Of a stretch of DNA of 24,212 nucleotides, positions 2,463 to 23,873 are shown piece by piece (the stretch's first letter is position 1; each line of letters begins with the position of its first letter). Origin of the DNA: a virus; IMG/VR virus record IMGVR_UViG_3300032236_000211, positions 1 to 24,212 of that record. One strand, written 5' to 3'. The notes below the pieces were generated by a model. The model ran no database searches and had not been told where the DNA came from. It saw only the letters and a list, made by a program, of their open reading frames with translations. The position numbers and the translations under genes are program-made.

Positions 2463-2746
2463 TTAATTTCTTCTAACATTTTGATAACCACGCCAAATAC
2501 AACTTCAATAAATGCGGCGTATGAACCATCTTTAATGTTGGGTCTATCTAACCAACTATCCCTTACTTCGGCTACGCGAACTGCAATATCGGCGGCTATG
2601 TTGCTTTCAATAACTGCTTCGTATTCTTGAGCGCGTTTAATTAGTTGCTTGTGATTTCTTTGGCACTTAGACATATCACTTGTTTTGCAAGCGTGTAAGT
2701 GTTCATATTCAAATACATCTATCGCCTCTTGAATTATAGTTTTCAC
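2459..2746 (-). CDS. Hypothetical protein, helical (95 aa)
   Basis: The 95-residue product is predicted largely helical from its heptad-like spacing. It contains HLHACKTSDMSKCQRNHKQL (two His, two Cys; residues about 16-35) near the N-terminus and a hydrophobic C-terminal helix AAFIEVVFGVVIKMLEEI. The start is GTG, overlapping the WhiB gene stop as GTGA. A purine-rich GGAGAGGG lies further upstream. I do not recognise the family. Its place inside the coupled operon is the main support for it being real. Confidence 0.7.
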   Translation of the reverse strand: MKTIIQEAIDVFEYEHLHACKTSDMSKCQRNHKQLIKRAQEYEAVIESNIAADIAVRVAEVRDSWLDRPNIKDGSYAAFIEVVFGVVIKMLEEIK

Positions 2747-3249
2747 GAATGTAGATCCCTCTCCATATTTGAATCTTCTAATATATCCTCTAACGGTACT
2801 CCAAAGATTTTTAAATCCTTGCGTAATGCTTGTAAAAAGCGCGAGTCGTAGGCTTTCTTAGCAATCTCACCGCGTTCCCAAGATGTAACGCCACCGAACA
2901 TACCCCAACGCTCTTTCTCATAGCCGTACTGATAGCAATCACGGCGTATTGGGCAAGAGAAACAGATTTGGCGAATGTATCGAATCTGAATATATCTATG
3001 GCGTAAAAGATCATCTTCAAGATAAAACAAATCCGTATTGATACCTTTGCAATTAGCTCGTTCCCACTCAATCTTTTTCTCAGGCTTAGCGGGCTTAACT
3101 ATTTTGCTTAATAATTGATCTAGATCATCTTGGCTATAAGTATCGTGTTCGAATTCTTCAAGTTCTTTGCGCTTTACCCAACGGCGAATTGTTTTTTCTG
3201 TAACGCCGTAACGCACCATCGCATCTTCAACTGTTATTTTCCTTGGCAT
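2743..3249 (-). CDS. WhiB-family [4Fe-4S] regulator with N-terminal HTH domain
   Basis: The 168-residue protein combines two domains. Residues about 4-48 form an excisionase/MerR-like helix-turn-helix (ITVEDAMVRYGVTEKTIRRW). Residues about 62-130 are a WhiB-like module with C67, C96, C99 and C105 (C-x28-C-x2-C-x5-C), followed by WGMFGG at 115-120, the WhiB G-rich turn. WhiB proteins are actinobacterial iron-sulfur regulators that usually bind the main sigma factor, and phage copies are known to alter host transcription. The start at 3249 is chosen because AGGGGAAAT lies directly upstream; an earlier start would lengthen the overlap with the Cas4-like gene from 16 to 49 bases. Canonical WhiB proteins have no separate N-terminal HTH. 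The remaining C-terminal tail (131-168) is unassigned. Confidence 0.88.
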   Translation of the reverse strand: MPRKITVEDAMVRYGVTEKTIRRWVKRKELEEFEHDTYSQDDLDQLLSKIVKPAKPEKKIEWERANCKGINTDLFYLEDDLLRHRYIQIRYIRQICFSCPIRRDCYQYGYEKERWGMFGGVTSWERGEIAKKAYDSRFLQALRKDLKIFGVPLEDILEDSNMERDLHS

Positions 3250-3887
3250 CCAATTTCCCCTGTTCGATCGTAGTAACTGCAATAGTTTTGGCAGAAGAAA
3301 ACTGCCGATTTTTCGGGAGGTGGTGGGGATTGCATCTCCTTAATTTCATTTAACCAAGCCAAACCTTGATCGGCTTGCGATTGATCGTATGGTGCTTGCC
3401 AAACTTTAATATCCAACATCTTGCCATCTCTAGGAATAGCAACTAGGGCTACCTGCTCAACTTCATAACCGTTTTGAGTAAGTAAATGACCGTAAAGTTG
3501 CACTTGCATTTTTTGTTGTGAGCTTGGAAACTTCGCCAACCCTTTAAGCGTGGTTGTTTTCCAATCAGCCACCAACTTAGCCGACCTAGAATAAAAATCA
3601 CAATGCCCCTTGAGTTCCGGTACTGAGAATTCTTGTTCAATGAGAAAGTCCTCACCAAACAAATCGAGTGCCGATAACGCTTCTTGGATCGTGTGATGGA
3701 TAGCAGTACCGAGTATCGCACTTAGATTCTCCGTATCGTGATTTGTTTTAGGTGTTTGGTTGATGATGTGCCAAGCCTGCCTGCGACATCCACCAACCGA
3801 ACTTGCACCGATCTCTACCTGCACCGAGCGATCTTTAACGCTATCAGCTTCTCTCAGCGCAGTAGTTAAGGTTTTAACTATGTCCAT
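3234..3887 (-). CDS. Cas4/RecB-like PD-(D/E)XK nuclease with probable Fe-S cluster
   Basis: The 217-residue protein has the RecB-nuclease core: H64/H65 in GTAIHHTIQEA, G94-H-C-D97, D108-W-K110 (the D-x-K catalytic pair), and QVQLYG at 128-133. Four Cys, C34 (GGCRRQAW) and C199, C203 and C214 near the C-terminus, match the split Fe-S ligand pattern of Cas4 and AddB nucleases. It probably resects DNA ends for phage recombination, working with the annealing-like protein encoded upstream in the same operon. AAGG lies five bases before the ATG. The start overlaps the C2H2-finger gene by 14 bases. No cas genes or repeats are nearby, so a CRISPR role is not suggested. Confidence 0.88.
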   Translation of the reverse strand: MDIVKTLTTALREADSVKDRSVQVEIGASSVGGCRRQAWHIINQTPKTNHDTENLSAILGTAIHHTIQEALSALDLFGEDFLIEQEFSVPELKGHCDFYSRSAKLVADWKTTTLKGLAKFPSSQQKMQVQLYGHLLTQNGYEVEQVALVAIPRDGKMLDIKVWQAPYDQSQADQGLAWLNEIKEMQSPPPPEKSAVFFCQNYCSYYDRTGEIGCQGK

Positions 3888-15826: not shown

Positions 15827-16719
15827 TATCTAACCCTTCTATAAGGTAATAGCAACTGTTCTGCTAAAAGTATATCCTCGCCTAACTTTTCTTTGCCGGG
15901 TACTGTTGGGCCTGCGCTTGTAGAGATAGACATAACCATCGAGTTATCACCACGAACTTTTAGAAAAGCGGTTGTAACAAGGATTGCGGCCTCTTTGATT
16001 GCAGGTGGTAGAGCTGAGATAGAAATACCTGTTGCGTGATTATTAACCAACGCAGATGTAAGTGGAATTGTGGTTGATCCAAATGTGTAAGTTGATGCTA
16101 CGGTTACAAACTCACTTGAGTAGCCGTCATAAATCTTTAGTGTTAATCCTGCGGTGATTCCTGTACCATCAGCAACGGTTAGGCTTGTTTGTCCTGCAGT
16201 TGCGGTAACGATAGTGGTGTTTGCGTAGCCTGCTACATAGGTGTATTTGATGTAGGTTTCAACGCGTGGTGATGTTGGAAAACCAAATTGAAGCGCGCCT
16301 TGAGATGAATAAGTTAAAGATAGATTTGCATAAGGCACGATGATCTCTGAATCTTCGATCCAAGCAACTGAGCAATCGCTTAGGGTTTGAAGCTGAGTTG
16401 ATGGGTTGCCATACTGAAAAGATGTAAGCGCAATAATTGGGTTGTAGCGTGGGTGAAGGCGAATAGTGCCGTCAGCGTTAATGCGTGTGCGTTGTTGCTC
16501 TTGTTCGGTTGTAGCGGCTAGAACTTGGTTGCAATAGGTATCAATCCAAGATGAAGCGCGAGCAATTACATTGGATAATTCGGCATCCTGAACATCAGGG
16601 TCTTGCGAATTAAAAACTAGGTTATCTATATCAATCGCGGTAGGCGCGTTCTTAAACTCATCTAGGGTTAGATATGGGGTTGAGAACTGATGCGTTGTAC
16701 CTGTGTATGCGTTACCCAT
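15826..16719 (-). CDS. Head-tail adaptor with beta-rich insertion
   Basis: The 297-residue protein has an HK97 gp6-like N-terminal helical part (LSNVIARASSWIDTYCNQVL, about residues 48-67). A region of beta strands (about 85-175) follows, with LHPRYNPIIALTSFQYG. Residues about 168-235 (TATAGQTSLTVADGTGITAG and following) look like an inserted beta domain, and the C-terminal helix ALPPAIKEAAILVTTAFLKV closes the fold. It forms the ring between portal and tail. It is long compared with usual gp6-like proteins because of the insertion. The start overlaps the zinc-ribbon protein by eight bases. Confidence 0.72.
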   Translation of the reverse strand: MGNAYTGTTHQFSTPYLTLDEFKNAPTAIDIDNLVFNSQDPDVQDAELSNVIARASSWIDTYCNQVLAATTEQEQQRTRINADGTIRLHPRYNPIIALTSFQYGNPSTQLQTLSDCSVAWIEDSEIIVPYANLSLTYSSQGALQFGFPTSPRVETYIKYTYVAGYANTTIVTATAGQTSLTVADGTGITAGLTLKIYDGYSSEFVTVASTYTFGSTTIPLTSALVNNHATGISISALPPAIKEAAILVTTAFLKVRGDNSMVMSISTSAGPTVPGKEKLGEDILLAEQLLLPYRRVR

Positions 16720-16975
16720 TTATTTCCCCACACTTTCCGCATTTCTTAAAAAATGATCCAAACCCGCACTTTTGGCAGGTATATCCGACTTGTGAAGGAT
16801 TTGCTAATACGCCTGATGCGCTCGCAATTCCCAAGCCCTCTTGTTTTAATTTTCTAACTAGCTTTGGATCGCTAACATTAAACAATCCATCTTTGCCAGC
16901 CTTTAATACTCTTTCGCCCTTTGAAGTATTTACGCCAAGTTCGCGCATACCTTTTGGGCCAATCATCTTTGGCAT
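16712..16975 (-). CDS. Head-region protein with C-terminal zinc ribbon (87 aa)
   Basis: The 87-residue protein starts MPKMIGPKGMRELGVNTSKG and ends with a zinc ribbon, C67-x2-C70 and C79-x2-C82. A proximal helical part (DPKLVRKLKQEGLGIA) precedes it. AAGGAGGG stands six bases before the ATG at 16975; the longer frame would start inside the stem-loop at 16999-17024. It follows the capsid gene and overlaps the adaptor gene. A role at the capsid or head-tail joint is likely from position; nothing more is known. Confidence 0.75.
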   Translation of the reverse strand: MPKMIGPKGMRELGVNTSKGERVLKAGKDGLFNVSDPKLVRKLKQEGLGIASASGVLANPSQVGYTCQKCGFGSFFKKCGKCGEING

Positions 16976-17038: not shown

Positions 17039-18697
17039 TTATGCGTTCACGATTCCTGAAACGACACCATTCCAAGCAGGTGCGTAGCAGAAGAATGTTC
17101 CACGGAAATAGGTTGAGAATTCGTAGGCGAATTGTGTAACAGGCCATTGAATACCCATATAGTCTTGAACCATAACATTTGCCCAAACATCTGATACCTC
17201 TGTATCAGGAATTGGCAATGTGTAGGAAAGAACAGGTGCAACACCTTGTGGAAGCCAAGGATGAACAACAAGATCAACGAGCTTTCCGGTGATTTCGTTG
17301 TGTAGTGCGCCAATAACTGCGCCGCCTACATAATCGCCTGTATCTGTTTGTGAAAGATTTAGACGGTAGTTAGCGGTTGAGCCGTTCTTGATTGAGTCAG
17401 AAAGTTGCTTACGATCTGCACCGTTTAGCAAGATTTCATCAGGATCACCCTTAACTGAATCGTATAGACCTGAGAATACCTTTTGGAATTCTACGCCCGG
17501 ATTAGAGGTTGAGAATGAGGTGTTAATATCATTAACATAACCTGAGTTTGGACCAAGAACGGTGGCAAGAATTCCATCGTATCCTGTTGCGTAAGCAGAA
17601 GTATCTGCGTTAGCGCGAGCGGCTGTGATTGTGCTTGCAGTTGAATACACAAGGATATCGCCACCGCTTACTGTTGATGAACCAACAACATAAGCAGTAT
17701 TTGACTTAAATGTTCCAACATACTTAGCGTTTGCAGTACCAGTTGTTGTACCAACATACACATTGTAACCAAGTGCGCCTGTGATATCGGCAACTTGAAT
17801 CTTTAGAACTTGTGATGAAGGTGTTGATGATTGAACTGTTGAAACAATAGACTCACCAAAACCTGATGAAGAAATACCAGCATCGGCAGTTACATATACA
17901 TAGTATGTGTTGTTAGCGATTGCGGTTGTTCCTGTTGGTGCTGAAACAGAAGATAGAGTTACTGTTGGTGCGGTTAGCGCGCCTGAGTAACCTGATGCAG
18001 TTCCACGGCTCATTAGCATCATTCTTTCTTCCATTAGCATTGTTGCGTAAAGGGTAGAAGTTGATGATAGTTGGCGTAGGTCTTGGTATCCCAAACCTGA
18101 GAAGTTAGCATCGAATGATACTGAGTCAGATAGTGAGTATGAGTTGTAAGGTAGAACTAGGTCATCTGCTGAGTATGAAATCTTTGGACCGCGTTCAAAG
18201 TTAATTGAACCAAATGCGGTTGTTGTAGATTCTGTTATGCCCGGCCAAATGTTTCCTTGTCCGCCCGTGCCTGTACCTGTGTAACCTGTGATGCGCTTTA
18301 CACGGTGTGAAGTACCTACTCCGCGCTTACGAACGATCTTGTTGCGTAGAGGAGTTGGGCGAGGTGTTAGAAGTTTTGCAGGTGCTTCCAAGTCGAAAGC
18401 GGCAAAAGATGTTGAAAGTGGAGATGTTAGGGAAATATCCTTAACAATGTCTGCACTTGCGGTGCGTTGTGCGGCTAGAGCCGCGTTCAATGAACCAACC
18501 GCATCAGGTGATAGCGACTTGTTAGCTACAAGTGCTTCGATTTGTGCGGCAGGATCAACTGTTGGTGCTTGACCCGGTGTTGTTGAAGGGTTTGAGAAAG
18601 ACTTGTTAAGTTCTCCAAGATATTGTTCTTGAAGTTCTGCGGCTTTCTTTGGCTTCACATCACCGAATAGGTCTGTTGCTTTAGGCATCTGTGCCAT
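17039..18697 (-). CDS. HK97-fold major capsid protein with Ig/FN3-like insertion
   Basis: The 552-residue protein has an N-terminal helical/disordered delta-like region (1-95, with PKATDLFGDV and QEQYLGELNKSF), then an HK97-type core: TPLRNKIVRKRG near 115 and the long helix TLYATMLMEERMMLMSRG at 215-232. Residues about 241-365 form an insertion (APTVTLSSVS, then YYVYVTADAG and GYNVYVGTTTGTANA) with the alternating strands of a fibronectin-III/Ig-like domain. The capsid core resumes with YDGILATVLG (about 373) and ends with AYEFSTYFRGTFFCYAPAWNG. AAGGAAAA lies nine bases before the ATG. Insertions like this usually project from the capsid surface. Confidence 0.85.
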   Translation of the reverse strand: MAQMPKATDLFGDVKPKKAAELQEQYLGELNKSFSNPSTTPGQAPTVDPAAQIEALVANKSLSPDAVGSLNAALAAQRTASADIVKDISLTSPLSTSFAAFDLEAPAKLLTPRPTPLRNKIVRKRGVGTSHRVKRITGYTGTGTGGQGNIWPGITESTTTAFGSINFERGPKISYSADDLVLPYNSYSLSDSVSFDANFSGLGYQDLRQLSSTSTLYATMLMEERMMLMSRGTASGYSGALTAPTVTLSSVSAPTGTTAIANNTYYVYVTADAGISSSGFGESIVSTVQSSTPSSQVLKIQVADITGALGYNVYVGTTTGTANAKYVGTFKSNTAYVVGSSTVSGGDILVYSTASTITAARANADTSAYATGYDGILATVLGPNSGYVNDINTSFSTSNPGVEFQKVFSGLYDSVKGDPDEILLNGADRKQLSDSIKNGSTANYRLNLSQTDTGDYVGGAVIGALHNEITGKLVDLVVHPWLPQGVAPVLSYTLPIPDTEVSDVWANVMVQDYMGIQWPVTQFAYEFSTYFRGTFFCYAPAWNGVVSGIVNA

Positions 18698-18723: not shown

Positions 18724-20304
18724 TTATTCGTTGTCGTTCGCAATAGGGAGGCCGCCTTTAGTGGAAAATTCCGCGTAAAGTGCTTGGTATCCCTTGCGAA
18801 GAACAGGATCGGTTGTTGCATCAGCCTTAGCCTTATATGTTGCGGCCTTGACTAGATATTCATTTGATTGTGCGCCTGAGATTACTGCGGTGCGCTTTGG
18901 GCCACCTGCAACACTCTTAGACAATGCCGTTGCTAGTTCGGTTTCAAGTTTTACTGACTTCTCTAGAGCAGACTCTTTTTCTGCCTTTAGTGAAGCAATC
19001 TCAGCTTCAACCGATTTCATAGCACTCTTAACGGCTTCTTCGATAATGGCTTCAACGCCCTTATCATCTGAGGTTTCACCCTCAGAAACTTCGGTAACTT
19101 CTGCAACTTCGGCAGGAGTTTCTGCTTCAACAGGTGCTTCTGCTTCGGCTTCGGTAGCAACTTCATCTGCTTCAACAGATTTAACTGATCCAGCACCCTG
19201 TTCAGGTGTAACGATCTGAGCAGTTGTTACATTTGCAGGTGCAACCATTGGATTAACATTTGATCCGCTTGGTGGGAGAACCTTGTCTAGTCCGTGTGTA
19301 GCACCGACATTGTGGCATCCGCACTCTAAGCACTTTGCGGTATCTGCTTGAACAGATTTTGCGGCCATATATGAACATCCCTTGCACATCTTGGTATCGC
19401 AACCCTTACAAGCCTTGCATCCATCGCATCCGCAATCAGCGCAAGAATCTTCGTGATCGCAATCGCCCTTAACAACTTCTGCGCCAGCAGATAGTTCAAT
19501 AGTGTTTAGATCAGGTGCGACAACTTCGCCTTCTGAAACTTCACCTTCGTACCAGTTGCGTAGGTGCTTTAGAGCATCCATTAGGCTTTCGATTGAATCG
19601 CGCTCGCTATTGTCGGCTGAGATTTCTCCCGCTTCAACAATGATTAAGTCTGCAATAGCCTTAACTGCGGTGTCGAATAGTGCTTGGTCAAACTTCACGG
19701 TATCAGGAGTCAAAGACTTAGCCAATTCCGTGATTTGCTTTATTTTATCCATCTTTGACCCTTTCTTAGTGGTCTTAATAACATCGCTAGGTAGCGGTGC
19801 TTTGTATTCGTGAAGTTCCTCAACTTGAACTAGAGATGATTCTCCTTCAACACTCTTTGCCATAATTAACTTCGCGTTTGGGTTGGCGGGCCGATCGACT
19901 AAAGAAACTTCGATGATCTGCCCATCAATGATGCGACCATTAACTGCCTTGGTATCGCGTACAACGCGTGGAGATTTAATACCTATTGAGAATCCTTTAA
20001 GAACTCCTGCCTCCACTTTCTTAACCGAAACAGGATCAACGACAAGAGCAGAAATGTAATGACCATCGCTTTTCGCTTCATATTCTTTTGCAACTCCCGC
20101 CGCAATGTTTGAATGTTGTTCGCGGATATTTCCGCCTGACTTAAACCATTGTGGCATAGCGGTATCTAGCCAAGCAGGATCGCAGATTTGCTGATCCATA
20201 TCAATAGAATCATCGGTTGCCTTACCATAAACGGTAAGTGTGCCGTCTGAGTGCTTATCTGCCTTGATTAACTCTGCATACGCATAAGTAAAATCAGTTG
20301 CCAT
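18724..20304 (-). CDS. Prohead protease fused to Cys-rich and scaffold-like regions
   Basis: The 526-residue protein has a prohead-protease domain (about 1-165) with H64 (REQHSN), S106 (LKGFSIGI) and EVSLVDRPANPNA at 132-144, the family's conserved block. A helical spacer follows (186-255), then a region with twelve Cys between 282 and 330. An Ala/Glu-rich low-complexity stretch (about 375-410) comes next. A coiled coil (420-465) and a helical C-terminus (485-515) make a scaffold-like end. Protease and scaffold fusions are known in tailed phages; the Cys-rich part is not something I expect here. M185 at 19752 has AAAGGG in front, so a separately translated scaffold is possible. GGAG precedes the ATG. 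Confidence 0.82.
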   Translation of the reverse strand: MATDFTYAYAELIKADKHSDGTLTVYGKATDDSIDMDQQICDPAWLDTAMPQWFKSGGNIREQHSNIAAGVAKEYEAKSDGHYISALVVDPVSVKKVEAGVLKGFSIGIKSPRVVRDTKAVNGRIIDGQIIEVSLVDRPANPNAKLIMAKSVEGESSLVQVEELHEYKAPLPSDVIKTTKKGSKMDKIKQITELAKSLTPDTVKFDQALFDTAVKAIADLIIVEAGEISADNSERDSIESLMDALKHLRNWYEGEVSEGEVVAPDLNTIELSAGAEVVKGDCDHEDSCADCGCDGCKACKGCDTKMCKGCSYMAAKSVQADTAKCLECGCHNVGATHGLDKVLPPSGSNVNPMVAPANVTTAQIVTPEQGAGSVKSVEADEVATEAEAEAPVEAETPAEVAEVTEVSEGETSDDKGVEAIIEEAVKSAMKSVEAEIASLKAEKESALEKSVKLETELATALSKSVAGGPKRTAVISGAQSNEYLVKAATYKAKADATTDPVLRKGYQALYAEFSTKGGLPIANDNE

Positions 20305-20313
20305 TGTTTCTCC

Positions 20314-21522
20314 TTAGTTTTCTTTTGCTAGCCAAACAGGTGCTTCCGTCATACCCAATAGCCACATAGCCATTAAGCGGTGGTGTCCGTCAATGATGAT
20401 TTGCTCACCATTGCGTTCTACTACGAGAGCAAAGTTACGATATGGGGTAATTCCTGCACCCATAGATTCAATATGTTTTTTAATTTTTTTACGGCGCATA
20501 TATTCATCCGTAGCAGTTAAATCTTCAAAGCGAACTAAGGCTAGTTCTGCGTTATCCCAAATGCTCGGATCAACCGTAATTACAGGTGTTACTTTCCAAG
20601 GCGATTCGACTACCTTTTCCACATCAATATCTTCGGGAACTTGTGGTGGATTAGGCAAAATCTTTAAGCGAGATAGTGCGCGTTCTACTTCTAATTTAGA
20701 AGGTACGAACTTAGCAAGATCAGGCATTACTGCTAATTGGATGTCGGTGCTATCGCTCATATAAGGTGCAATATCACACATACAGTTAGGATGAACAGGT
20801 GCATCGCCGTTAGGCCAATCTTCATCAATAGATATTGGTGAAGCATCCTCATTTACTGCACATTCCTCGCAAGGATCGGCTACTAGCCACTCAACCATCT
20901 CAACGCCTGAATCGCGGTATTGGGTAAGTTCAGATTGAACTACTGCGCGGCTCATTTCTGTTTGAGCGATAACGAGTGCTTGTTGTGGGTCATTGACTAC
21001 CTGATCCACCATAATAGAAACTTGAGAAGGTGTTACGCCTTGCGCAAGAGCCTGAGATAAAATTGTGCCAATACGATCTAACTTTGTGTTAGATATGCCA
21101 TCAATGGTTACTGATGCTTGGTCTAATAGGCTTTGTAATCCACCCTTAGGGCTTAGTAAAGCCGCCGCGCCTTGATTGCCCGGTGTCCAAGTTTCCCAAT
21201 TAACTACACCAACCTTAGGTGCAGTTACGGCTTTGTTACGAAGTAAGTGTGCAAGAACATAACGCCCTGCAAGATTACCTGTTACCCAACCATCGGCATA
21301 AGTTCTTTTAAGCGCATCTACTAAAGGTCGCTTATCAATGTTGATATGAACCTTGGCCCAATCACGCGCCATAGCAGGTGTTACTTGCCCACCCGCAGGA
21401 TGTGTTTGCGCAAAAGATTCTGCAACTGCTTGTGAATCAATCGCTTGGCTAAATGCTTTGCGTATTTTGTCGGCGTGTGAAGCCGCTATACGAACTATCG
21501 CGCCTTTCGCGGGGGATTTCAT
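20314..21522 (-). CDS. MuF-like minor head protein with C-terminal ParB-like domain
   Basis: The 402-residue protein contains the Mu F/SPP1 gp7-type minor head block at about 185-252 (AQTEMSRAVVQSELTQYRDS), followed by the metal-binding-like C218-x2-C221 and H244-PN-C247-x-C249. Residues about 310-402 form another domain, ending VERNGEQIIIDGHHRLMAMW and LLGMTEAPVWLAK. The DGHHRL core resembles ParB/sulfiredoxin-fold nucleotide-binding domains. MuF proteins sit inside the head near the portal, and many carry variable C-terminal effector domains. Start TAATG-coupled to the portal. The ParB-fold call rests on one motif. Confidence 0.8.
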   Translation of the reverse strand: MKSPAKGAIVRIAASHADKIRKAFSQAIDSQAVAESFAQTHPAGGQVTPAMARDWAKVHINIDKRPLVDALKRTYADGWVTGNLAGRYVLAHLLRNKAVTAPKVGVVNWETWTPGNQGAAALLSPKGGLQSLLDQASVTIDGISNTKLDRIGTILSQALAQGVTPSQVSIMVDQVVNDPQQALVIAQTEMSRAVVQSELTQYRDSGVEMVEWLVADPCEECAVNEDASPISIDEDWPNGDAPVHPNCMCDIAPYMSDSTDIQLAVMPDLAKFVPSKLEVERALSRLKILPNPPQVPEDIDVEKVVESPWKVTPVITVDPSIWDNAELALVRFEDLTATDEYMRRKKIKKHIESMGAGITPYRNFALVVERNGEQIIIDGHHRLMAMWLLGMTEAPVWLAKEN

Positions 21523-23363
21523 TACAACCCCAAATAGCGTTCAGCGTACCAGCGCGCACCGTCTAGGTCTTTAGCCTCGACAAACTTGTTTAGAACTTCG
21601 GCGTAAGTATCTTCGACATATTCAAAATTAAATGAGCGAGATGAATTACCCTTGCGAACCCAACGAATAAAAGTTTTGATTTCATCTTGAGCAGACTTAT
21701 CAACAGGCTTTTCTGCGGGCTTGGCAGGTGTTTCAGCAACAGGTTGTTCTGTTGGTTGTTCTACTTGCTCACCATTTTCATCAAGTTGTGTTCCTGCTTG
21801 AACCATACCGTTAGGAGTCATTAGGAATACTGATTGACCAGCAACAAAGATCGGCATATCAGCCTCAGGAGAATCCAATAGTGGAAGTCCTAAATCAGCG
21901 CGGTTTTCGTTAATGGTTTGTGATCCGTTGCGTGTGCGTAGATCATCGCGCTTTGCAATATCTTGATCGTTTGTGCGCTCGCTAGATGCAAGACGGAATT
22001 CAAGTTCGCGTGGCATACCTAACCAGCGATAAGAAAGATTTGAGATCATTTGGCTAATCCAACGAGCAGTTGGGATGATGCCAATTTGTTCTGCGGCTTC
22101 GGCTTCGCCTGCTTGATGACCTGAACCACCAAGGCCGCCCTTAGCACTAAATCCAATTTCAGTTGGCAGAACGCCAAAGTGTCCTGTAATAGAAGTGATT
22201 AGATAATCATCTAAGCGATCTGAGAACTTCTCGCTATATCCCGGCTCAAATTGCATCTTTGCACCCGGAATTAAGAAACGCATACGATTGCGTTGTTCTG
22301 TTTGTCCTGCTAGATCATCGTTAAAAATGTTTTCGTAAGCACGGATTTGTTCAGGCATTATATTTGCAGACTCAGGCAATTCAAGCCAAGTCTTAGGCAT
22401 AACACCATCGGTAAATTCTGCACGAATCCATTGCTGACGGCGCAAGTAAATATCAGCCATTGGCAATGCGCGCTCAACAGGTGAATATCCATAAACAGAA
22501 TTAGCGCGGCGGTTGCGTACAAAGTAAGCAAGTTCATCAGAACTAAATTCGCCATCTGCGGCTTCATCGTCAATAGTTGCGTTGAATTCTGAACGAGGGA
22601 AGCCATACAGAATTTGTTGGAAAGCAGGACCAGTAGAAGGATCAGGGCGCATACCGCGATCATCTAGAAGTGGCTTAATGGTTGCGCCATCAAGAATTTG
22701 TAATCCGCGAATCTCGCCACCAACAGTTGATTGAGGCCAAATAGCCCAAGCATCTAGCACATCAATTTCTTCAAGTGCCATATTAAGCCAATCAACAAAA
22801 CCTAAACCGTTTGCAGGATCAGGAGTTTCCCAAAACTTGCGAAGGCGAGCAATTTCAGGAGTAAATTTATCGCGGGCATCTGCCATAGCGCGTAGGTGAT
22901 TGCCACCTGCTTCGGAAATAATCTTTTCTGATGCCGCATCACTTAAAACAATATCCCATTCAAGACCTGAAATTTTGGCCTTCCGAACTTCAATGCAACG
23001 GCGCAAGATGTCTATTTGATCTGCGGCGGCTCGTAGTGTCTTGAAAGGCACTAGGCGGTTTTCGCTTACATTGATGTTCTGCGCAACTAAATACTCGTAA
23101 CGGCGTGGTGCAGGTCTGCCAGTTTCAGGATTTAATGGATTGAGTGCGCCCGGAATTAAAGGTAAGCCCGGTGCAAAAGGAACGCTTGCTAATAAAGGAT
23201 TGCGAGGCAATGGAGTGCTTGTACCGAATCCATATTGCGTTTGTGCAATACCGCCTGCTTGTCGCATTTGTTGTTCGGTCATAATGCCTGTGCCACTAGG
23301 GAGATTTGGGGCTTTTTCTAATTGGGTTGCAACGGCTTTTGCTATGCGGTCAATCAAGCCCAT
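21522..23363 (-). CDS. Portal protein
   Basis: The 613-residue protein has a portal core from about residue 95 (LVPFKTLRAAADQIDILRRC and IEVRKAKISGLEWDIVL), with FVRNRRANSVYGYSPVERAL, YLRRQQWIRAEFTDGVMPKT and MQFEPGYSEKFSDRLDDYLI, all typical of phage portals. The C-terminal part (about 480-560) is Pro/Glu-rich and ends with RKGNSSRSFNFEYVED and ARWYAERYLGL. The portal forms the dodecameric DNA gate at one vertex. Its start lies one base into the HNH stop (shared base at 23363). The terminase genes that usually precede it are not in the window. Confidence 0.9.
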   Translation of the reverse strand: MGLIDRIAKAVATQLEKAPNLPSGTGIMTEQQMRQAGGIAQTQYGFGTSTPLPRNPLLASVPFAPGLPLIPGALNPLNPETGRPAPRRYEYLVAQNINVSENRLVPFKTLRAAADQIDILRRCIEVRKAKISGLEWDIVLSDAASEKIISEAGGNHLRAMADARDKFTPEIARLRKFWETPDPANGLGFVDWLNMALEEIDVLDAWAIWPQSTVGGEIRGLQILDGATIKPLLDDRGMRPDPSTGPAFQQILYGFPRSEFNATIDDEAADGEFSSDELAYFVRNRRANSVYGYSPVERALPMADIYLRRQQWIRAEFTDGVMPKTWLELPESANIMPEQIRAYENIFNDDLAGQTEQRNRMRFLIPGAKMQFEPGYSEKFSDRLDDYLITSITGHFGVLPTEIGFSAKGGLGGSGHQAGEAEAAEQIGIIPTARWISQMISNLSYRWLGMPRELEFRLASSERTNDQDIAKRDDLRTRNGSQTINENRADLGLPLLDSPEADMPIFVAGQSVFLMTPNGMVQAGTQLDENGEQVEQPTEQPVAETPAKPAEKPVDKSAQDEIKTFIRWVRKGNSSRSFNFEYVEDTYAEVLNKFVEAKDLDGARWYAERYLGL

Positions 23364-23845
23364 TAGCGCGCACCTTTCATTAAGTTACATTTTCCGTGTG
23401 AAGGTCTAACATTTTCTAAAATATCTAAGCCACCCTTGGCAACAGGAATCAAGTGATCTATATGCAAACTATTTTCCCAACCCTGTTTTCCTGTTTTACG
23501 ATTAGCCATTAAATCTATATCTTTTCCGCAGATATGGCATAAAGAACCATAAGTGTTAATTACATCAGGTTCGGTATAAGGAGAAACGCCCTTATATCTA
23601 GAAGCATATAAAGCGTGAAATCTAATTTTTTGTTTTCTTGCATATTCAGGATCGGTAACCATCCGTTGTTTATGCCGTTTATTGATGTTGCCTAAAACCC
23701 TTTTTCTGTATTCAGGGTTATTTTTATACCGTTCTAATTTATAAATTCTGTGCGCTTCTTTGCATTGCAAACAAGGTTCTTCTTTTAATCTGCAATGTTT
23801 GTTATATCCGCTACGAGTGCCACATTCGGCTATTTTTCGAGCCAT
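23363..23845 (-). CDS. HNH endonuclease with N-terminal Cys/His motif
   Basis: The 160-residue protein has the N-terminal motif CGTRSGYNKH (C8, H17, C18) followed by C25-x2-C28. This is a small Cys/His module I associate with actinobacterial and actinophage proteins. The C-terminal HNH domain follows: C103-x2-C106, H128-I-D-H131, N145, H150 and C153, ending in GKCNLMKGAR. HNH proteins next to terminase and portal genes often help DNA packaging; a homing nuclease is the alternative. The ATG at 23845 has AGGAGGTGG in front; a GTG nine bases earlier would overlap that site. It is the rightmost gene of the leftward structural operon here. Confidence 0.88.
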   Translation of the reverse strand: MARKIAECGTRSGYNKHCRLKEEPCLQCKEAHRIYKLERYKNNPEYRKRVLGNINKRHKQRMVTDPEYARKQKIRFHALYASRYKGVSPYTEPDVINTYGSLCHICGKDIDLMANRKTGKQGWENSLHIDHLIPVAKGGLDILENVRPSHGKCNLMKGAR

Positions 23846-23873
23846 ATTTGCCACCTCCTAGTAGGATATATCT

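Follow-up and report, generated by a model that had tools for sequence, protein, structure and literature searches.

A prohead protease-scaffold protein with two probable zinc-binding modules, one of which also occurs as a free microprotein behind the capsid gene

Known protease-scaffold systems and the head-gene locus

A single gene encoding both protease and scaffold is known for phages lambda and P2 (PMC8508860). The lambda C/Nu3 pair resembles the system described here in this respect and in its in-frame internal start for the scaffold alone, a feature predicted in our case, with the difference that our internal product is deduced from synonymous constraint only. Lambda C is not known to belong to the S78/assemblin type of proteases, nor is Nu3 known to contain zinc modules. 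The HK97/S78 prohead proteases and T4 gp21 share with the protein analysed here the protease fold and the invariant His and Ser. It differs from them in adding a scaffold, putative zinc modules and an insert site to the protease, and from HK97 also in that HK97 uses the delta domain of its capsid protein as scaffold.

The window, that is the whole stretch of DNA analysed, comprises 24,212 nucleotides (positions 1 to 24,212 of the IMG/VR virus record IMGVR_UViG_3300032236_000211). In the reading direction, the head genes follow the order portal, MuF, protease-scaffold, capsid and a small zinc-ribbon-like protein near 16712-16975 (Table 1). The reading frame of the protease-scaffold gene lies on the minus strand, the plus strand of this segment being full of stops; the earlier note on this DNA had given no strand. 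The ORF starts with an ATG preceded by AAGGAG. The C-terminus of the small protein behind the capsid gene (16712-16975, minus strand), CQKCGFGSFFKKCGKCG, forms a zinc-ribbon-like tail, likewise found in loci L059, L062 and L073. In some relatives, namely L062 (6058-6130), L067 (4724-4796) and L073 (9118-9189), the capsid gene is followed by a tRNA-Gln (TTG), and none is present in the window. The HNH endonuclease encoded at 23363-23854 (minus strand) has an N-terminal part that matches WhiB-like PHROG families. A megablast search of the whole window against the named phages of the INPHARED collection returned no DNA-level match. Regarding the host, we infer an actinobacterium because a close relative (L280, 75% in the best segment) resides in an Actinomycetota MAG, and because a WhiB-like gene can be read from the sequence at 2743-3282 of the window. 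The virus is presumably of freshwater origin, a guess from the IMG/VR sample numbers.

Table 1. Positions in the window of the head genes and of the features of the protease-scaffold protein
Feature	Position	Strand	Basis or remark
Portal	21522-23363	-	precedes MuF in reading direction
MuF head protein with ParB-like C-terminal domain	20314-21522	-	follows portal, precedes protease-scaffold
Protease-scaffold gene	18724-20304	-	526-aa ORF; PHROG 80 head maturation protease, E 5e-16; between MuF/portal genes and capsid gene
S78-type protease domain, residues 1-150	19855-20304	-	Foldseek match to T4 gp21; invariant H64, S106, E132, D137
Shine-Dalgarno-like AAAGGG of predicted internal start	19759-19764	-	synonymous freezing; AAAGG(G/T)TCAAAGATG kept
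Internal ATG, Met185, predicted start of scaffold-only product (residues 185-526)	19750-19752	-	synonymous freezing and upstream Shine-Dalgarno-like stretch
Helical segment, residues 185-257	19534-19752	-	AlphaFold2 helices 185-197, 207-231, 235-257
Module A (C282, C288, C291, C293, C296, C299, C302, C307, C310)	19375-19461	-	sequence, ligand columns, C/H exchange at 310, duplicated in L022
Proposed protease site K316-S317, lying between modules A and B	19354-19359	-	K316 in 39/39, S317 in 37/39
Module B core C325-G338, KCLECGC-x6-HG, ligands C325, C328, C330, H337	19291-19332	-	ligand conservation and free-standing homologues MCLECGC..HG
K375-S376, end of B segment, proposed protease site	19177-19182	-	KS downstream of B in 72/72
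Scaffold coiled coil, residues 416-466	18907-19059	-	AlphaFold2
C-terminal helices, residues 479-516	18757-18870	-	AlphaFold2
Major capsid protein, 552 aa	17039-18697	-	phrog_13692, E 9e-82 (family itself unannotated in PHROG), position and relatives
ANKSL in capsid N-arm, K60-S61	18515-18520	-	ANKS[LM] in 22/22 unique relatives
Free B (form encoded by relatives), example sequence			MCLECGCNQPADNHGRDDVSTAEMITEK

AlphaFold2 modelling, with 48 sequences as input for the whole protein and 39 for the Cys module alone, places the protease fold at residues 5-136. Foldseek analysis of this model reports T4 gp21 as the best hit (5jbl, E 4.9e-6, TM 0.60 by target), followed by herpesvirus assemblins. 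The residues H64, S106, E132 and D137 are unchanged in 48/48 homologues, and by analogy H64 and S106 would be the catalytic His and Ser. The Pfam S78 profile (PF04586) scores 15.4 bits, under its cut-off of 21. With the fold, the conserved His and Ser and a gene sited between the portal and major capsid genes, the 526-residue protein is confirmed as a prohead protease of the S78 type to which a scaffold is fused. An acidic linker separates the Cys-rich stretch from the coiled coil, and P469, K470, R471, G505 and Y506 are invariant among homologues near the C-terminal end, the helices of which probably serve as the capsid-binding end.

Two cysteine modules and their ligands

The earlier note had drawn attention to twelve Cys within residues 282-330, mostly in CxxC or CxC spacing, between the protease and the scaffold coiled coil. 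The translation bears out this count, with Cys at positions 41, 282, 288, 291, 293, 296, 299, 302, 307, 310, 325, 328 and 330, and the AlphaFold2 boundaries of the protease and the coiled coil bear out the location. The binomial chance of at least 12 Cys in 49 residues is ~7e-15 per stretch for the background of 0.82% Cys taken from the other window proteins, none of which exceeds 4 Cys per 49 residues. Shuffling the protein's own residues 20,000 times gave at most 8 Cys in such a stretch. The cluster splits into two separable modules, A (residues 282-310) and B (residues 325-338). The four ligands of B (C325, C328, C330 and H337) are invariant in 39/39 modules. The position of C310 is occupied by Cys in ~43 and by His in 29 of the 86 unique homologues, the other 14 being without a matching module; the module-bearing ones have no other residue there. 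In the 86 unique full-length homologues, the Cys count beyond residue 200 is 12 (n=8), 10 (n=33), 9 (n=29), 16 (n=1), 7 (n=1), 6 (n=1), 4 (n=9) or 1 (n=4), with module A ranging from 4 to 9 Cys and B (KCLxCGC-x4-9-HG) constant. The 16 Cys are those of L022 (4849-5196), in which module A is duplicated in tandem. Across ten close homologues, the amino acid never changes in most Cys columns, and many flanking columns differ in ~30-40% of comparisons.

Four Cys/His ligands and a tolerance of Cys-His exchange characterize zinc mini-domains of the treble-clef, knuckle or ribbon class, and both are found here, the former in B (C, C, C, H) and the latter at C310. Modules A and B are very probably zinc-binding. 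The near-invariant Cys/His columns and the exchange at C310 make metal binding by the stretch probable, as the earlier note had suggested. Zinc appears to be the simplest reading of the metal; it fits C310, where a disulfide is disfavoured because the position is Cys or His only. The iron-sulfur option of the same note drew no direct support. Although the stretch is Cys-rich and Cys3His ligation is known for some iron-sulfur clusters, such a cluster is most unlikely: Pfam, PHROG and PDB-sequence searches returned no Fe-S family match, the short CxxCGC..H modules resemble zinc knuckles, and the same junction bears recognised zinc-ribbon or DnaJ zinc motifs in relatives. A redox switch, in which disulfides formed after lysis or in the head would lock or release the scaffold, agrees with the many Cys and with their varying number among homologues; it is nonetheless very improbable, since the replacement of Cys by His at one position in 29 homologues and the invariant His in B are what zinc sites, not disulfides, typically show, there are three Cys in free B (see below), and assembly takes place in the reducing cytoplasm. 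The suggestion that the cluster holds the scaffold together is possible, and the idea of a decoy for regulation, for which nothing speaks, has been dropped.

The density of Cys also calls to mind the SmtA-type bacterial metallothioneins, which are alike in ligand number and in CxC/CxxC density. Cyanobacterial SmtA uses 11 ligands for 4 Zn, and 62/86 homologues have a ligand total of 11 (9C+2H or 10C+1H). Modules A and B (10-12 Cys plus His) might then form a polynuclear cluster that buffers zinc in the course of infection or carries it into the particle. We consider such a zinc store unlikely: a Pfam scan of 16 modules gave no metallothionein match beyond one weak hit (a yeast family, E 0.19), A and B come apart readily, the free form of B has only 4 ligands, and fusion to the scaffold together with a tie to the capsid gene would be needless for a buffer. 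Indeed, it is the missing profile match, the divisibility into A and B and the scaffold fusion that set the window modules apart from SmtA. Searches of Pfam, PHROG and PDB sequences with the Cys module returned nothing usable, and a genome scan with the module pattern gave 28 pattern matches, none of them a relative. AlphaFold2, applied to the whole protein and to the Cys module alone, did not fold the Cys region with confidence (pLDDT about 30-50; 51 for the module alone), and no argument is therefore drawn from its geometry.

Fused and free forms of module B and exchange at the junction

IMG/VR searches yielded 74 loci with the whole protein and 80 with the Cys module; all module carriers among the latter match the protease-scaffold protein. 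Homologues devoid of a fused B usually possess instead a free ORF of 28-42 residues (MCLECGC..HG..TAEM.T..) directly behind the capsid gene, its ATG overlapping the capsid stop codon as TAATG. Among loci that include the region behind the capsid gene, 70 have a fused and no free B, 8 a free and no fused B, 2 neither and none both; 6 further loci, unscored for the spelling GAPKR, are fused types without free B and bring the fused total to ~76. A DNA-pattern scan for MCxxCGC..HG found 12 contigs with a visible scaffold gene, partly overlapping the earlier loci, and none of them has a fused B. These exclusivity counts share ancestry, and clustering leaves 20 fused, 8 free, 4 neither and 0 both at 97% identity (P 5e-5), 14, 7, 4 and 0 at 93% (P 7e-4) and a P of only 0.008 at 90%, values that ignore the remaining relatedness. 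Neither a fused nor a recognisable free B is found in L059 and L062, where the downstream region is present, nor in L279 and L281. In L280, B is placed elsewhere in the protein, ahead of the helices. Module B thus moves as a unit, since its fused and free forms exclude each other and since it lies elsewhere in L280, and we take it as an autonomous unit. The Cys-rich stretch resembles a self-contained component of head assembly, not a random insert, because relatives make part of it as a separate small protein encoded after the capsid gene and in none of the genomes examined are the two forms found together. A tblastn search of INPHARED with free B returned no match. Many other viral contigs, of the L160-L277 series (e.g. 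L167, 7275-7415), encode Lys-rich microproteins MCATCGC(G/M)KPKDKHG..., sometimes with a second MCATCGC ORF alongside, in a gene context unlike that of free B.

The earlier note had held that homologues lacking the Cys with otherwise conserved flanks would speak against its reading. Such homologues exist (L062, L073, L074 and L053), so that the cluster is dispensable for the protease/scaffold function as such; however, a free B usually lies behind the capsid gene where the fused one is missing, and the function therefore looks relocated and not simply lost. The varying Cys number might on its own be taken as evidence against function, a reading given up in view of the free microprotein.

Mapped onto the protease tree, the Cys type undergoes 17 changes, compared with a minimum of 7 and a mean of 41.5 after shuffling. 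An identical 165-residue protease is encoded by the window and by L005, with 12 and 10 Cys, respectively, in the module, and their DNA identity falls to 60% at residues 281-300. Compared with the protease, the modules turn over more quickly, by exchange or by reshaping. Other inserts occur at the protease end, around residue 177, namely DUF5872 and unnamed ones (ERxL..PDGSYPI, YNxNH, HGDHDQ), in L016 (residues 178-247), L280, L066 and L071. For the ERxL insert ahead of the scaffold, Pfam did not report the expected DUF6582, and the insert is left unnamed. Some loci of the L084-L143 series carry an extra N-terminal domain (FFARHEVDK...GGDAGKSWA) ahead of the protease. The modules could be mere passengers, zinc mini-domains gained and lost neutrally at an insertion-tolerant junction and devoid of any head role. 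The 17 changes, the differing Cys types beside an identical protease in the window and L005, the other inserts (DUF5872, YNxNH, HGDHDQ) at the same place and the single Cys in the scaffold part of four unique homologues agree with this explanation. We hold it to be rather improbable, as the Cys are strongly conserved, and neither the mutual exclusion of fused and free B nor the tie of free B to the capsid stop codon is expected of neutral passengers.

Zinc-binding motifs unrelated in sequence are found at the same protease-scaffold junction in more distant relatives. In L285, an Actinocrispum locus, a zinc ribbon scores 23.4 bits (cut-off 25), and in L287, a MAG contig labelled Micrarchaeota, a label that may be a binning error, a DnaJ CxxCxGxG motif scores 33.5 bits (cut-off 32.7). 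This looks like parallel recruitment. Streptomyces and Rhodococcus phages bear an FWC..CxxC motif at the junction: the Stanwilliamsviridae capsid maturation proteases (LukeCage, Wakanda, Mildred21) and that of Rhodococcus phage Dorin carry an FWCxx[DH]..CxxC motif, with three Cys and a D or H, immediately after the protease domain. Theirs is a single short motif without A and B modules, in proteins annotated as capsid maturation proteases only. The cultured relatives THSA-485A and MMB025 have no Cys cluster.

Lys-Ser pairs, an internal start and the proposed role of module B

Lys-Ser pairs bracket module B. A KS pair lies at most 16 residues upstream of B in 67/72 unique homologues, as compared with 10% by chance composition, and at most 70 residues downstream in 72/72, as compared with 39%. 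Residues 150-526 contain KS 8 times where 2.9 are expected (P 0.004), and the homologues have a mean of 7.4 against 2.8. Since KS is enriched within the coiled coil too, some of these pairs may be structural. Some free B proteins end in ...ITEK or ...TPTETPK, where the fused forms read ...VTEK/S or ...PTETPK/S. In the other free versions the last residue is E, A, Q or N instead of K, so that the match at the terminal Lys is not universal. Phage HK97 is cleaved at K103/S104 (PMC10275583), from which the K/S preference is proposed here. The bracketing of B by KS, the free forms that stop at the corresponding Lys and the HK97 site together suggest that the phage protease cuts between Lys and Ser and releases fused B.

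A second product may be nested within the gene. Codons 180-185 (AAG AAA GGG TCA AAG ATG) are without synonymous change across ten homologues, and KKGSK/KGSKM is the most synonymously frozen of 459 five-codon windows, with 0/208 differences against a gene mean of 0.36. The frozen stretch reads AAAGGGTCAAAGATG, and AAAGG(G/T)TCAAAGATG is present in 17/17 relatives with KGSKM; in a wider set of 17 sequences this window is still among the most frozen, though not the first. Most members of a second homologue group, with differing amino acids, carry an AAGG-type stretch before a Met at the same place, and in a third group GAGGGAG precedes an ATG just upstream of the Cys module. The anti-Shine-Dalgarno energy at Met185, -4.8 kcal/mol, is within the range of real starts but ordinary (rank 18 of 107 internal ATGs). 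Because the Shine-Dalgarno-like stretch and its ATG are synonymously frozen, we consider it likely that a scaffold-only protein is made from Met185.

Taken together, we favour, by a modest degree of belief, a polyprotein of protease and scaffold with a nested scaffold-only product, two zinc modules A and B, and an autonomous B that would be cut out between Lys and Ser. In building the head, module B would work in one of two forms, a free microprotein whose translation directly follows that of the capsid protein, or a bead within the scaffold. The fused form would enter the prohead together with the scaffold, and the phage protease would probably excise it to yield a peptide like the free microprotein. 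Its likeliest job would be to make contacts, as an element stabilised by zinc, with capsid, portal or scaffold partners while the head is built or matures. A broader proposal is tentative and in our judgement doubtful: the scaffold would act as a carrier, delivering zinc mini-proteins to the prohead interior to be freed there by Lys-Ser cleavage, with the B peptide, equivalent to the free microprotein of relatives, as a lasting and hitherto undescribed head component and with different zinc modules at the junction in different lineages.

The protein family itself is not new. The zinc modules and the free counterpart of B, however, appear to be undescribed; a search for zinc or Cys-rich phage scaffolds found nothing on point in the searchable literature, the coverage of which excludes most subscription journals. 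Scaffolds are usually viewed as throw-away coils, whereas the scaffold gene analysed here bears conserved, probably metal-binding mini-proteins. The reading makes specific predictions, namely zinc, fragments ending at Lys-Ser sites and a nested product. It would account for the very small, unannotated ORFs that form a family downstream of capsid genes, and it points to an unrecognised small head-assembly factor in widespread, probably freshwater actinobacterial, phages.
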